A stretch of DNA of 64,000 nucleotides. Source: Wenzhouxiangella marina. GTDB taxonomy: Bacteria > Pseudomonadota > Gammaproteobacteria > Xanthomonadales > Wenzhouxiangellaceae. Shown piece after piece: positions 32,055 to 40,818 of the stretch. How positions within the stretch are numbered: position 1 is the stretch's first letter; each line of letters opens with the position of its first letter. The notes under the pieces are model-generated. The model was not told the DNA's origin, ran no database searches, and was given only the letters and a program-made list of their open reading frames with translations. A program made the translations under genes and the position numbers. The stretch is taken from contig NZ_CP012154.1 of NCBI RefSeq assembly GCF_001187785.1, positions 676,501 to 740,500 of the forward strand, given 5' to 3'.

Positions 32055-33566
32055 ATGTTTGATTGGCCCCTGCTCAGTCTTCTGGTCTGGATTCCGATTG
32101 CCGGCGGCGCGGCTCTGATCGCGCTGGGTGATCGCTACCCGGACCTGGTCCGCCCGCTGGCCCTGATCACGGCACTGGTCTGCCTGTTGCTCTCGATCGT
32201 GGTCTATGCCGGTTTCGACGTCGGCACGGCTGCGATGCAGTTCGAAGAGAAGGCCGTCTGGATCGAAGCCTTCGACATTCACTACCACCTCGGGGTGGAT
32301 GGCCTGTCCCTGCCGCTGATCATGCTGACGGCATTGATCGGGGTCATGGTGGTCATCGGCGGCTGGACGATCACCGATCGGCCGCACCAGTACCTGGCCG
32401 CCTTCCTGATGCTGCAGGGTCTGATGGTCGGCATGTTCGGTGCCCTCGACGCCCTGCTGTTCTACGTCTTCTTCGAAGCCATGCTGGTGCCGATGTTCCT
32501 GATCATCGGTATCTGGGGGGGTCCGAACCGGATCTACGCGACGATCAAGTTCTTCCTGTTCACCTTCTTCGGTTCGGTGTTCATGCTGATCGCCCTGATC
32601 TGGATGTACCTGCAGGGCGGCAGCTTCGCCATCGCCGATCTGCACGCCATGCCGATCGCCCTGGATGCCCAGATCTGGATCTTCCTGGCCTTCCTGATCG
32701 CCTTCGCGGTCAAGGTGCCGATGTGGCCGGTCCACACCTGGCTGCCGGATGCGCACGTCGAGGCCCCGACCGGGGGTTCCGTGGTGCTGGCGGCGGTGAT
32801 GCTGAAGATCGGTGGCTACGGTCTGGTGCGTTTCTCCCTGCCGATCACGCCCGATGCGGCGGCCGAGCTGGACTGGCTGGTCATCGGCATGTCCCTGGTC
32901 GCCATTGCCTACATCGGTTTCGTCGCCCTGGCGCAGAGCGACATGAAGAAGCTGATCGCCTACAGCTCGATCTCGCACATGGGCTTCGTCACCCTGGGCC
33001 TGTTCCTGGCCTTCGCAATCCAGCGCCACTCCGGTGAACTGACCGGCGCGGGCCTCGGCATCAGCGGCGCCATGGTGCAGATGATCTCCCACGGCTTCAT
33101 CTCCGGCGCCATGTTCCTCTGCGTGGGCGTGCTCTACGATCGGGTCCACAGCCGCGAAATCTCGTCCTATGGCGGCGTGGCCAACACCATGCCCTGGTTC
33201 GCGATGTTCGCCGTCCTGTTCTTCATGTCGAACTCCGGCCTGCCGGGCACCTCGGGCTTCGTCGGCGAATTCATGGTCATCCTGGCCGCCTTCCACGCCA
33301 ACTTCTGGTTCGCCTTCGTCGCCGCCACCACCCTGCTGCTCGGCGCGGCCTACAGCCTGTGGCTGGTCAAGCGCGTGTTCTACGGTGAGGTGGCCAACGA
33401 TCAGGTGGCTGCGCTCAAGGACATCACTGCGCGTGAATGGATCATGCTGACGACCCTGGCGGTCTTCGTGCTGGGCGTGGGCATCTGGCCGTACCCGCTG
33501 ATCGAGATGATGGAAGCCTCGATCCAGAACCTGGTCGCTCACATCGTCCAGTCCAAGATCGGATAA
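32055..33566 (+). CDS. nuoM: NADH-quinone oxidoreductase subunit M
   Basis: A 503-residue antiporter-like proton-pumping subunit. Diagnostic stretches are YHLGVDGLSLPLIMLT, FEAMLVPMFLIIGIWGG, KVPMWPVHTWLPDAHVEAPTGGSV and LIAYSSISHMGFVTLG. Normally nuoN would follow within a few bases. Here the left inverted end of a GxxExxY element begins 7 nt after the stop. Confidence 0.97.
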   Translation: MFDWPLLSLLVWIPIAGGAALIALGDRYPDLVRPLALITALVCLLLSIVVYAGFDVGTAAMQFEEKAVWIEAFDIHYHLGVDGLSLPLIMLTALIGVMVVIGGWTITDRPHQYLAAFLMLQGLMVGMFGALDALLFYVFFEAMLVPMFLIIGIWGGPNRIYATIKFFLFTFFGSVFMLIALIWMYLQGGSFAIADLHAMPIALDAQIWIFLAFLIAFAVKVPMWPVHTWLPDAHVEAPTGGSVVLAAVMLKIGGYGLVRFSLPITPDAAAELDWLVIGMSLVAIAYIGFVALAQSDMKKLIAYSSISHMGFVTLGLFLAFAIQRHSGELTGAGLGISGAMVQMISHGFISGAMFLCVGVLYDRVHSREISSYGGVANTMPWFAMFAVLFFMSNSGLPGTSGFVGEFMVILAAFHANFWFAFVAATTLLLGAAYSLWLVKRVFYGEVANDQVAALKDITAREWIMLTTLAVFVLGVGIWPYPLIEMMEASIQNLVAHIVQSKIG

Positions 33567-33573
33567 GACAGGC

Positions 33574-34029
33574 TCACCACAGAGGCACGGAGTACACAGA
33601 GCAAAGATTTTCATGGTGGACAAAGATGGCGACAGTGAGTTGACCGGCGAAATCATTGGCGCTGCGATTGCTGTGCATCGGGAGTTGGGTCCCGGGCTGC
33701 TCGAGTCTGTTTATGAAGTGTGCCTGGCCTTCGAATTGGAGGCGCGAGGTCTGAATTTTGAAAGGCAGGTGGAATTGCCTGTCGTATATCGAGGTCATCA
33801 CCTCGACTGCGGTTACCGACTCGACATGGTGGTCGAGGGTAGCGTTTTACTGGAGCTTAAATCGACTGCAAATCTGGAACCGATCCATGAAGCACAGTTG
33901 CTGACCTATCTGCGATTGAGTGGTCTCCAACTTGGTCTTTTGATCAACTTCAATGTTCCAGTCTTGAAACAAGGTATCCGGCGCAGAGTTCTTTAGCTTT
34001 ACTCTGTGACCTCTGTGCCTCAGTGGTGA
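33574..34029 (+). mobile_element. GxxExxY element with inverted ends inserted between nuoM and nuoN
   Basis: A 456-bp unit with imperfect 28-bp inverted ends: 33574-33601 (starting TCACCACAGAGGCACGGAG) and the reverse complement of 34002-34029 (starting TCACCACTGAGGCACAGAG), with 24 of 28 positions matching. The single gene inside encodes a GxxExxY protein. Ends built of repeated CACAGAG/GCACAGAG words are a recurrent flank of this gene family in many bacteria. It splits nuoM from nuoN, and its right end stops 12 nt before the nuoN ATG. I infer a small mobile or domesticated element; how it moves is not established. Confidence 0.75.
33613..33996 (+). CDS. GxxExxY family protein (PD-(D/E)XK nuclease-like)
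   Basis: A 127-residue protein with the name-giving motif in GPGLLESVYEVCLAFEL (G-x-x-E-x-x-Y, residues 28-34). A PD-(D/E)XK-like core follows: the Asp in CGYRLDMVV and E-x-K in LLELKST. The family is placed in the PD-(D/E)XK nuclease superfamily, but its biological role is not settled. The DNA is less GC-rich than the flanking nuo genes (for example ctgaattttgaaaggcagg), a sign of transfer. The start is the first ATG after the left inverted end. Confidence 0.88.
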   Translation: MVDKDGDSELTGEIIGAAIAVHRELGPGLLESVYEVCLAFELEARGLNFERQVELPVVYRGHHLDCGYRLDMVVEGSVLLELKSTANLEPIHEAQLLTYLRLSGLQLGLLINFNVPVLKQGIRRRVL

Positions 34030-34041
34030 ATTGGATTTTCT

Positions 34042-35475
34042 ATGACGATTGCTGAACTACAACTGGCGCTTCCCGAGATCTTCGTGCTGTCGATGACCTG
34101 CATCGTGCTGCTCGCCGATCTGTTCATTTCCGACGAGCGACGGGGGCTGACGCACACGCTGGCGATCCTGACCCTGGTGTTCGCGGCCATCCTGACCCTG
34201 CGCGTGATGCAGCCGGTCGGCGTGGTGGAATACGCCTTCTCGGGCACCTTCGTGCGCGACCGCTTCGGTGACGTGCTCAAGATCTTCAGCTATCTGATCC
34301 TGGCGGGCGTGTTCGTCTACGCCAAGCACTACCTGCGCCGCTTCGGTCTGTTCAAGGGCGAGTTCTACACCCTGAGCCTGTTCGCCCTGCTGGGCGTGAT
34401 GGTGATGATCTCGGCGTCCAATCTGATCACCGTCTACCTCGGTCTGGAGTTGCTGGCCCTGTCGACCTATGCCCTGGTGGCCCTGGACCGCGATTCGCGC
34501 TTCGGTTCCGAAGCGGCGATGAAGTACTTCATCCTCGGCTCCCTGGCCTCGGGCATCCTGCTCTACGGCATGAGCCTGATCTATGGCGCCACGGGTAGCC
34601 TGGACCTGGCCACGATCAGCCAGAACCTGTCGATGGGGGCGGGCGATTCGATGCTGCTGACCTTCGGCCTGGTCTTCGTGGTCATCGCCATCGCCTTCAA
34701 GATCGGCGCCGTGCCTTTCCACATGTGGGTGCCGGACGTCTATCACGGTGCGCCCCTGGCGATCACCACCCTGATCTCCTCGGTGCCCAAGCTGGCCTAC
34801 CTGGCCCTGGCCATCCGTCTGCTCGACAACGGCATGATCGGCCTGCACCAGGACTGGATGAACATGCTGGCCGTGCTGATCGGCCTGTCCCTGATCCTCG
34901 GCAACGTCGTCGCGATCGCCCAGGACAACATCAAGCGCATGCTCGCCTATTCGACCATCTCGCACATGGGCTTCATGCTGATGGGCGTGATGGCCGGGAC
35001 GCCGGAAGGCTATTCGGCCGCGATGTTCTACGCCATCGCCTACGCCATCATGTCGGCAGGCGCCTTCGCCGTCGTCATCCTGGTCTCGAGTGAGCGCGAA
35101 GCCGATCGCATCGAGGACTACAAGGGCCTGGCCAAGCGCAACCCCTGGCATGCCCTGCTGATGCTGATGATCATGTTCTCCCTGGCCGGCGTGCCCGTGT
35201 TCCTCGGCTTCTTCGCCAAGTGGCAGGTCATTGCCGCCGCCCTGGCGGCCGGCTTCATCTGGCTCGCCGTGCTGGCGGTCATCATGTCGGTGGTCGGTGC
35301 CTTCTACTATCTGCGCATCGTCAAGCTGATGTACTTCGATGCGCCGGAAGACAGCACGCCGGTGACGGCGCCGGTGGATTTCCGCGCCGTGCTGACCGTC
35401 AACGGCGTGGCCGTGCTGGCCCTCGGCATCTTCTCCGGTGGCCTGATCAGCCTCTGCGTCAGCGCTTTCTCCTGA
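34042..35475 (+). CDS. nuoN: NADH-quinone oxidoreductase subunit N
   Basis: A 477-residue antiporter-like membrane subunit, the last nuo gene. It has LELLALSTYALVALDRDSRFGSEAAMKYFILGSLASG, IGAVPFHMWVPDVYHGAPLA and MLAYSTISHMGFMLMG. The insertion upstream leaves only 12 nt between the element end and the ATG, with no good ribosome-binding site (TTGGATTTTCT). Expression therefore depends on readthrough from nuoM or on signals in the element. Confidence 0.96.
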   Translation: MTIAELQLALPEIFVLSMTCIVLLADLFISDERRGLTHTLAILTLVFAAILTLRVMQPVGVVEYAFSGTFVRDRFGDVLKIFSYLILAGVFVYAKHYLRRFGLFKGEFYTLSLFALLGVMVMISASNLITVYLGLELLALSTYALVALDRDSRFGSEAAMKYFILGSLASGILLYGMSLIYGATGSLDLATISQNLSMGAGDSMLLTFGLVFVVIAIAFKIGAVPFHMWVPDVYHGAPLAITTLISSVPKLAYLALAIRLLDNGMIGLHQDWMNMLAVLIGLSLILGNVVAIAQDNIKRMLAYSTISHMGFMLMGVMAGTPEGYSAAMFYAIAYAIMSAGAFAVVILVSSEREADRIEDYKGLAKRNPWHALLMLMIMFSLAGVPVFLGFFAKWQVIAAALAAGFIWLAVLAVIMSVVGAFYYLRIVKLMYFDAPEDSTPVTAPVDFRAVLTVNGVAVLALGIFSGGLISLCVSAFS

Positions 35476-35501: not shown

Positions 35502-35639
35502 AACACGAAGGACGCGAAGAAGGACTTGAATCAGTTCGTTGAATCGGTTCATGAGTTCCGTCGGCTACCGCCTCTTGTCTCGCCTTCCTTGATTTCGATC
35601 CTTTTCATTTCTTCGTGCCCTTCGTGCCTCCTTCGTGTT
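35502..35639. repeat. ORF-less inverted-repeat remnant between nuoN and truB
   Basis: The left side reads AACACGAAGGACGCGAAGA (35502-35520). The reverse complement of the right side (35610-35639) begins AACACGAAGGAGGCACGAAG and continues with more CACGAAG words. The outer 11 bp match perfectly as an inverted pair; the rest is a degenerate CACGAAG repeat. About 90 bp without a gene lies between. Ends made of repeated CACGAAG words are another known flank type of GxxExxY genes, so this may be a decayed or gene-less relative of the element before nuoN. Confidence 0.55.
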
Positions 35640-40749: not shown

Positions 40750-40818
40750 AACAAGATCGGGACAGCCACGAAGACACGAAGATTCCCTACCCGTGCTCGG
40801 GTCAATTTCCTACTTTAG

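Follow-up and report, generated by a model that had tools for sequence, protein, structure and literature searches.

A unit of 456 bp between nuoM and nuoN of Wenzhouxiangella marina holds a GxxExxY gene enclosed by two inverted arrays of a heptamer word. The unit is inserted, its two ends match, ends and gene behave as a unit, matching gene-less units are dispersed and the protein is under selection. Judged from these patterns, the protein would be expected to recognise the arrays, cut there and disperse the units, and we put at roughly 0.58 the probability that gene and repeats form a system resembling REPIN/RAYT, in which recognition and cutting of the arrays by the GxxExxY protein is what disperses them.

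Results

A GxxExxY gene between inverted heptamer arrays in the nuo operon

The DNA analysed (the window) is a stretch of 64,000 nucleotides, and the features of the unit and its neighbours are collected in Table 1. A sequence-only reading of the window had described a 456-bp unit with 28-bp inverted ends matching at 24/28 positions, and direct comparison of the ends together with shuffling confirmed it: 33574-33601 agrees with the reverse complement of 34002-34029 at 24/28 positions, compared with a mean of 15 and a best of 18 matches in 200 shuffles of one flank. Without gaps the inverted repeat runs on to 33574-33606 and 33997-34029 (28/33 matches). Each end consists of three CACAGAG-like heptamers spaced 8 and then 9 bp apart from the outside inwards, an array structure that was absent from the earlier reading and was found here. 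The unit starts 7 nt past the nuoM stop codon and ends 12 nt ahead of the nuoN ATG, the latter as previously described; its lower GC content also held (0.51 versus 0.63 for nuoM and nuoN, with 0.65 for the window).

Table 1. Positions of the inserted unit, its parts and the adjoining host genes within the window.
Feature	Position	Strand	Description
Inserted unit, whole	33574-34029		456 bp; 28-bp inverted ends, GxxExxY gene inside
Left end	33574..33606	+	heptamer array CACAGAG-CACGGAG-CACAGAG at 33578-33601, spacing 8 and 9
GxxExxY gene	33613..33996	+	127 aa; RecB/Cas4-type PD-(D/E)XK nuclease-like, by profile and conserved residues
Right end, inverted	33997..34029	-	heptamer array CACTGAG-CACAGAG-CACAGAG at 34002-34025, spacing 8 and 9
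nuoM, host gene upstream	32055..33566	+	adjoining host gene
nuoN, host gene downstream	34042..35475	+	adjoining host gene

For the single gene found within the unit, the NCBIfam and Pfam libraries give no match besides TIGR04256 (157.1 bits, cut-off 35, positions 1-115 of 116) and PF13366 (PDDEXK_3; 152.6 bits, cut-off 22), scores that uphold its earlier identification as a 127-residue GxxExxY gene of PD-(D/E)XK-like type. Across 55 aligned proteins E31, D71, E81, K83 and Y99 are invariant and Q95 is present in at least 90%. The residues conserved in GxxExxY are those of what we take to be the RecB/Cas4-type PD-(D/E)XK active site (a conserved E, D-ExK and QxxxY), and by these residues the protein is a predicted nuclease of that type. 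PADLOC returned only a weak Cas4 profile match (E 0.035), PHROGs no match, and a sequence-profile search of the PDB no relative at E values up to 1. In the portions of the open-access literature available, preprints excluded, we found no assigned function for this widespread family; the name GxxExxY appears a single time in each of two papers, in passages that attach no function to it.

The Wenzhouxiangella marina genome carries three GxxExxY genes, and in the host family a match was detected in 29/43 genomes, above the cut-off in 27. The gene is under purifying selection, with dN/dS of 0.09, 0.05, 0.00, 0.05 and 0.05 for the five pairs whose synonymous sites are not saturated (dS exceeds 1.4 in the remaining pairs). 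Among 50,697 phage records there was no GxxExxY match, and eight of the 72,556 plasmid records had one; of three plasmid records opened, the two annotated ones place the gene next to core genes, radA and fabD-fabG. Plasmid copies of Bacteroides and Sphingomonas lie between inverted heptamer-array ends, and the Gemmatirosa copy has such repeats on both sides, not as one simple pair around the gene.

GxxExxY genes were also seen beside or inside core operons, at trpE-trpG, carA-carB and sufB-sufC (names assigned by reading) and at radA and fabD-fabG (annotated); these are loci L061, L082, L115, L002, L305 and L306.

The nuoM-nuoN junction is empty in many relatives

We sought nuoN in 43 host-family genomes, found it in 36 and examined 30 loci. 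At 17/30 loci, in more than one genus, the nuoM-nuoN junction is empty (gap of -4 to 23 bp). A GxxExxY unit is present in three (G000, G026 and G018, where the contig starts inside the unit and nuoM is not seen), and the junction of locus L079 reads identical to that of G026. The other ten hold other sequence, mostly other inverted-repeat elements when sorted by eye: four of CGCAGATGAA type, four with GGTT-type heptamers, one short inverted repeat and one 80-bp spacer in which no repeat was noted by eye. Because 17/30 junctions in relatives are empty, the unit in the window is, on this comparison, an insertion. The finding that would have spoken against this, the gene at the same site in every relative, did not appear. 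A single clade for the three GxxExxY copies at this site was not rejected (p-AU 0.93); since three species carry a GxxExxY unit there, a recent jump of the window unit is unsupported.

The sequence-only reading had treated the unit as mobile and looked to relatives for an empty site and a target duplication. Empty sites were found, whereas no duplication was, the empty sites being too diverged to resolve one. More broadly, a target duplication of 2-9 bp was not found consistently in 78 gene-bearing elements; the best result of the scan was 4/78 for one 4-mer offset, with a shuffled mean of 0.5. The outer boundary reads approximately TTMAC ahead of the first heptamer. What stands of the earlier interpretation, then, is the insertion, the association of gene and flanks as a unit and the co-orientation of the unit within the operon, which many such loci seem to share by a rough gene call; what does not is the target duplication, and the suggestion that the protein acts on the repeated ends keeps the standing of a prediction. 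In that call, based on the longest open frame and wrong for some loci (L001 included), the neighbours agree in direction in 47/69 loci and the gene runs the same way in 41/47.

An NCBIfam/Pfam scan of the window unit detected neither a DDE nor a tyrosine transposase. With no DDE transposase and no target-site duplication found, the unit does not match a DDE insertion sequence or a MITE derived from one.

Heptamer arrays accompany the gene and change with it

A scan of genome contigs yielded 319 relatives, of which the best 80 were kept, from many phyla by their titles. Together with the host-family loci they made 111 loci, of which 105 were usable after removal of L140 (no hit) and five with flanks shorter than 100 bp (L013 and L119, which look the same, among them); L079 and L127 are the same locus, both are counted in the 105 and neither has both arrays. 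An array was defined as a run of at least two heptamers at a spacing of 8-11. The end heptamer follows C[AG]C-N-[AG]A[GT], mostly spaced 8-10 bp. By this rule arrays were found on the left in 90/105 loci, on the right in 90/105 and on both sides in 79/105, with one or both absent in 26/105; control windows 620-850 bp away gave 5 and 0 of 88.

The two ends of an element resemble each other closely. Left and right consensus heptamers are equal in 63/79 elements (shuffled mean 11.2, best of 2000 shuffles 21), as are left and right spacings in 59/61 elements with three heptamers per side (shuffled mean 23.5, best 35), and therefore the two ends change together. They also change with the gene. On the protein tree (79 rows, poorly resolved) the CAC/CGC end type requires 12 changes compared with 24.6 when shuffled (0/500 as low), and the final G/T of the heptamer requires one. 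End type thus follows the protein tree, and ends and gene behave as a unit. The earlier proposal that the inverted ends are kept as a unit with the gene was borne out by the arrays on both sides and by end type tracking the tree; flanks that fail to co-vary with the gene, the opposite outcome, were not encountered. At the level of single residues, a comparison with end type had only four supported pairs to draw on among the matches listed, and no covariation emerged.

In three Microcystis loci (L009, L015 and L017) the left end unit is tandemly multiplied, with a copy number that differs between loci.

Gene-less copies are commoner in genomes that own a matching gene

The 43 host-family genomes were scanned with patterns representing five end classes. 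With four matches deducted to allow for a gene's own unit, gene-less copies proved commoner in genomes owning a gene of the matching end type, by a permutation test across the 43 genomes that ignores kinship: p was 0.0003 for CGCAGATGAA (five owners), 0.007 for CGCAGATTn (five), 0.005 for CACRGAG (three), 0.07 for CACGAAGG (one) and 0.09 for CACAGATGAA (two), and 0/20000 permutations for the five classes combined. With the same deduction, a surplus is left in 13/16 owner-by-class cases. The counts were compiled by hand among the matches listed, and those for CACAGATGAA are approximate, being one count minus another. Ownership was judged from the copies read (for carA-carB of G035, from match positions); copies left out of this reading include G002:C8, G003:C38, G015:C14, G015:C45, G029:C248 and G031:C201, and therefore a genome counted as lacking a gene could own it there. 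G003 is the sole genome in which a CGCAAAT-ended gene was seen, and among the matches listed CGCAAAT copies elsewhere occur only there. Wenzhouxiangella marina has nine CACRGAG matches. The window unit's left end accounts for one, and the other eight fall in six loci; all six are inverted pairs with 67-109 bp between the outer heptamers.

The association has exceptions in both directions. Many copies where no matching gene was seen occur in G016 (approximately 36 of CACAGATGAA), G037 and G030 (35 and 29 of CACRGAG), G004 (26 of CGCAGATGAA) and G000 (45 of CACGAAGG). In all, 17/43 genomes, some of them incomplete assemblies, hold five or more copies of a class whose matching intact gene was not seen (G000, G001, G002, G003, G004, G012, G016, G022, G023, G025, G026, G028, G030, G032, G034, G035 and G037). 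Conversely, G039 owns a gene and has no exact copies, and G002 owns a CGCAGATTn gene with no copy surplus; G009, at the same site, has ends of its own that differ from the CGCAGATTn pattern, and its zero says little. In G035 it is a truncated gene, in a 255-bp unit, that accompanies the CACAGATGAA class.

Outside the family, 16 owner loci were hand-picked from the 80 to cover the end types. Their genomes contain 584 matches to the outer-end patterns, own units included, compared with 5 for a reversed-pattern control; 15/16 genomes have at least six matches, and one has two, which its own unit could explain. In three genomes the listed matches equal the counts (own units included), and there, read by eye, the copies follow the type of the gene: 98/99 are CGC where the gene's own heptamer is CGCAAAG, 24/34 are CGC for CGCCGAG and 12/14 are CAC for CACGGAG.

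These patterns bear on the possibility that another, unseen enzyme moves the arrays in trans and that GxxExxY is a passenger in some units. Gene-less copies abound where a matching GxxExxY gene was not seen, and four-helix-bundle genes lie between inverted arrays of other words, an architecture thus not tied to one family. A passenger, however, would need neither an end type that tracks the GxxExxY tree nor the arrays on both sides that 79/105 loci carry. We therefore regard a passenger role as unlikely, and favour the GxxExxY protein itself as the candidate enzyme acting on the arrays.

Several further observations concern copies in the host family. The GxxExxY copy at L214 (G035) lacks its first half, in frame, and is the one inside the 255-bp CACAGATGAA unit; its junction looks the same as that of an intact copy in G015. 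Within the window, a gene-less inverted pair of CACGAAG type occupies 35504-35637, between nuoN and truB (the latter named by reading), and a lone CACGAAG heptamer pair at 40767-40781 has no inverted partner within 600 bp. The CACGAAG class pattern has 45 matches in Wenzhouxiangella marina, and none of its three GxxExxY genes is so ended. No gene was recognised among the open frames of L245, a 600-bp CACGAAG pair in the same genome.

Junctions are occupied differently in related species

Eight junctions, chosen because they hold a unit in G015, were read in three to five further genomes each. From one related species to the next, these junctions hold the same class, a different class or next to nothing. 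A junction elsewhere is empty in G017. In G037 a CGCAGATGAA unit is nested within a CACAGAG unit. G030 has a corresponding CACAGAG unit that lacks the CGCAGATGAA unit; the two interiors are too diverged to place the insertion point. Among 61 gene-less interiors compared, with some sites read twice, one related pair was found at different junctions (G015 and G016, 74% over 123 bp). Its interiors are related and its flanks unrelated, which indicates that the unit moved whole, ends and interior together. L156 and L173 are different junctions. The remaining gene-less interiors are mostly unrelated, and most gene-less copies are therefore probably old, their interiors drifting while the ends stay.

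Inverted elements of different word classes were also seen at one junction in related species (L155-L211), and a site upstream of an eno-like gene shows, by reading, five words in six genomes.

If pairing between the ends were selected, a left heptamer should match its partner on the right better than it matches the others. In 61 gene-bearing elements the fourth position agreed at 0.699 for paired heptamers, 0.697 for unpaired and 0.697 within an end, and in 36 gene-less elements at 0.870, 0.875 and 0.880, for a test that covers left-right pairing only. Pairing thus brings no gain in agreement, a result that favours recognition of the word over hairpin pairing. Each heptamer would appear to act as an independent instance of one word, in the manner of a protein-binding site. 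An Rfam scan returned only mcr7, below threshold and outside the unit; reading the unit as an RNA element was rejected on the lack of an Rfam match within it and of a hairpin constraint in the pairing test.

The arrays might instead be regulatory, serving between operon genes as sites that bind a protein or form an RNA hairpin, GxxExxY being either their binding protein or a bystander. Units do lie, by reading, between co-directional genes at conserved junctions, and their ends are conserved while the interiors drift. Such sites would not, however, be expected to give way to different classes or to nothing at the same junction in related species, as insertions would; the nested unit and the unit shared by unrelated sites show movement, and the pairing constraint of a hairpin was not found. 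A regulatory role is thus distinctly improbable, and dispersal of the arrays as mobile units fits these observations better.

Gene-bearing copies keep to their junctions. Same-junction copies cluster on the protein tree, where eight site groups together require seven changes, the minimum. This stability in related species would suit homing, in which the nuclease would cleave the vacant operon junction and break repair would then copy the unit into it. Homing nevertheless seems very unlikely, given that units of the same type but without a gene are found at many junctions unrelated to one another and that the empty nuoM-nuoN junctions differ in sequence between species. That the gene has a host or defence function, with the ends a relic of an old insertion, is scarcely credible: purifying selection and the Cas4 match at E 0.035 would agree with it, but relic ends should not match in 59/61 spacings or resemble the gene-less copies in the genome.

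Discussion

According to the REPIN/RAYT-like reading that we favour, the window unit would be an old, mostly vertically kept copy from a family of very small elements, in each of which a single GxxExxY gene is framed by two inverted arrays of a heptamer. The protein would recognise the arrays as duplex words spaced near one helical turn and cut at or near the ends with its RecB/Cas4-type active site, and this cutting would copy or move units, for the most part those without a gene, to the gaps that separate co-directional genes. A site-stable enzyme gene with dispersed cognate repeats would result, an arrangement like that of REPIN/RAYT.

In the part of the REPIN/RAYT source available (PMC3116915), RAYTs are described as single-copy genes next to REPs of their own type, and the gene and its repeat are suggested to co-evolve. 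The likenesses drawn from that part are a distinctive single-copy gene for each type beside its repeats, repeats dispersed as inverted doublets outside genes, and a gene phylogeny largely congruent with the species at that level (PMC3116915). Here, too, the gene stands next to repeats of a type that is scattered through its genome, with exceptions. As far as those systems are described there, three differences stand out: RAYT is an IS200-like tyrosine transposase, whereas here the protein is of PD-(D/E)XK type; REPs are palindromic, whereas here heptamer arrays show no left-right pairing constraint; and here the gene lies inside the repeat pair. Because the enzyme differs, the heptamer-array unit is not a RAYT system, yet by analogy it may work like one.

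Related repeats have been reported under other interpretations. In the available part of a study of Geobacter metallireducens (PMC2700814), paired sites of three tandem TCTCCGTS[Y] are predicted binding sites of a global regulator; they resemble the arrays described here in forming opposite-strand pairs, and by reading TCTCCGTS[Y] is the complement of the CACGGAG word, but in that portion they are interpreted as regulator sites and class 2 is linked to no gene. For Xanthomonas, the part seen of PMC4692102 describes arrays of the heptamer GGGAATC, largely intergenic; in two genomes their convergent pairs number 70 and 75. These resemble the four-helix-bundle class of the host family and differ from the arrays studied here in having another word and a period of 7, and in having been studied, in that part, as G-quadruplexes; S23, nuclease and transposase do not occur in the PMC4692102 text. 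In Ca. Thiomargarita nelsonii, the available part of PMC4853749 suggests for the hupL MITE and Yhg-A that MITEs stem from an element with a PD-(D/E)XK enzyme. There, as far as that part goes, the nuclease family is PF12784, the ends are 10-bp direct repeats and the MITE carries no heptamer arrays, in contrast to the units here. Among the matches listed in the open-access literature, preprints excluded, no published link of GxxExxY to such ends was found.

A similar gene and word with many gene-less copies across many phyla suggests a poorly known small mobile element. It is possible, at a little short of even odds, that GxxExxY proteins are the enzymes of widespread bacterial two-part mobile systems, in which a PD-(D/E)XK nuclease of 120 residues recognises heptamer arrays with a spacing close to one helical turn and, with no transposase, delivers mostly gene-less units to operon junctions, and that four-helix-bundle proteins with other words form a second class. 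Agreement among the ends, the type of gene and the gene-less copies makes the function of GxxExxY a concrete test of binding and cutting, and heptamer arrays might account for intergenic repeats that earlier papers took as regulator sites.

In the host family, four-helix-bundle genes (TIGR02436; L215-L244) were observed between inverted tandem heptamers such as GGTTTCA, GGGACCA and GGAAGAC. By the filter used, 7/30 of these loci had no frame, and of the 23 that could be tested, 17 exceeded 30 shuffles.
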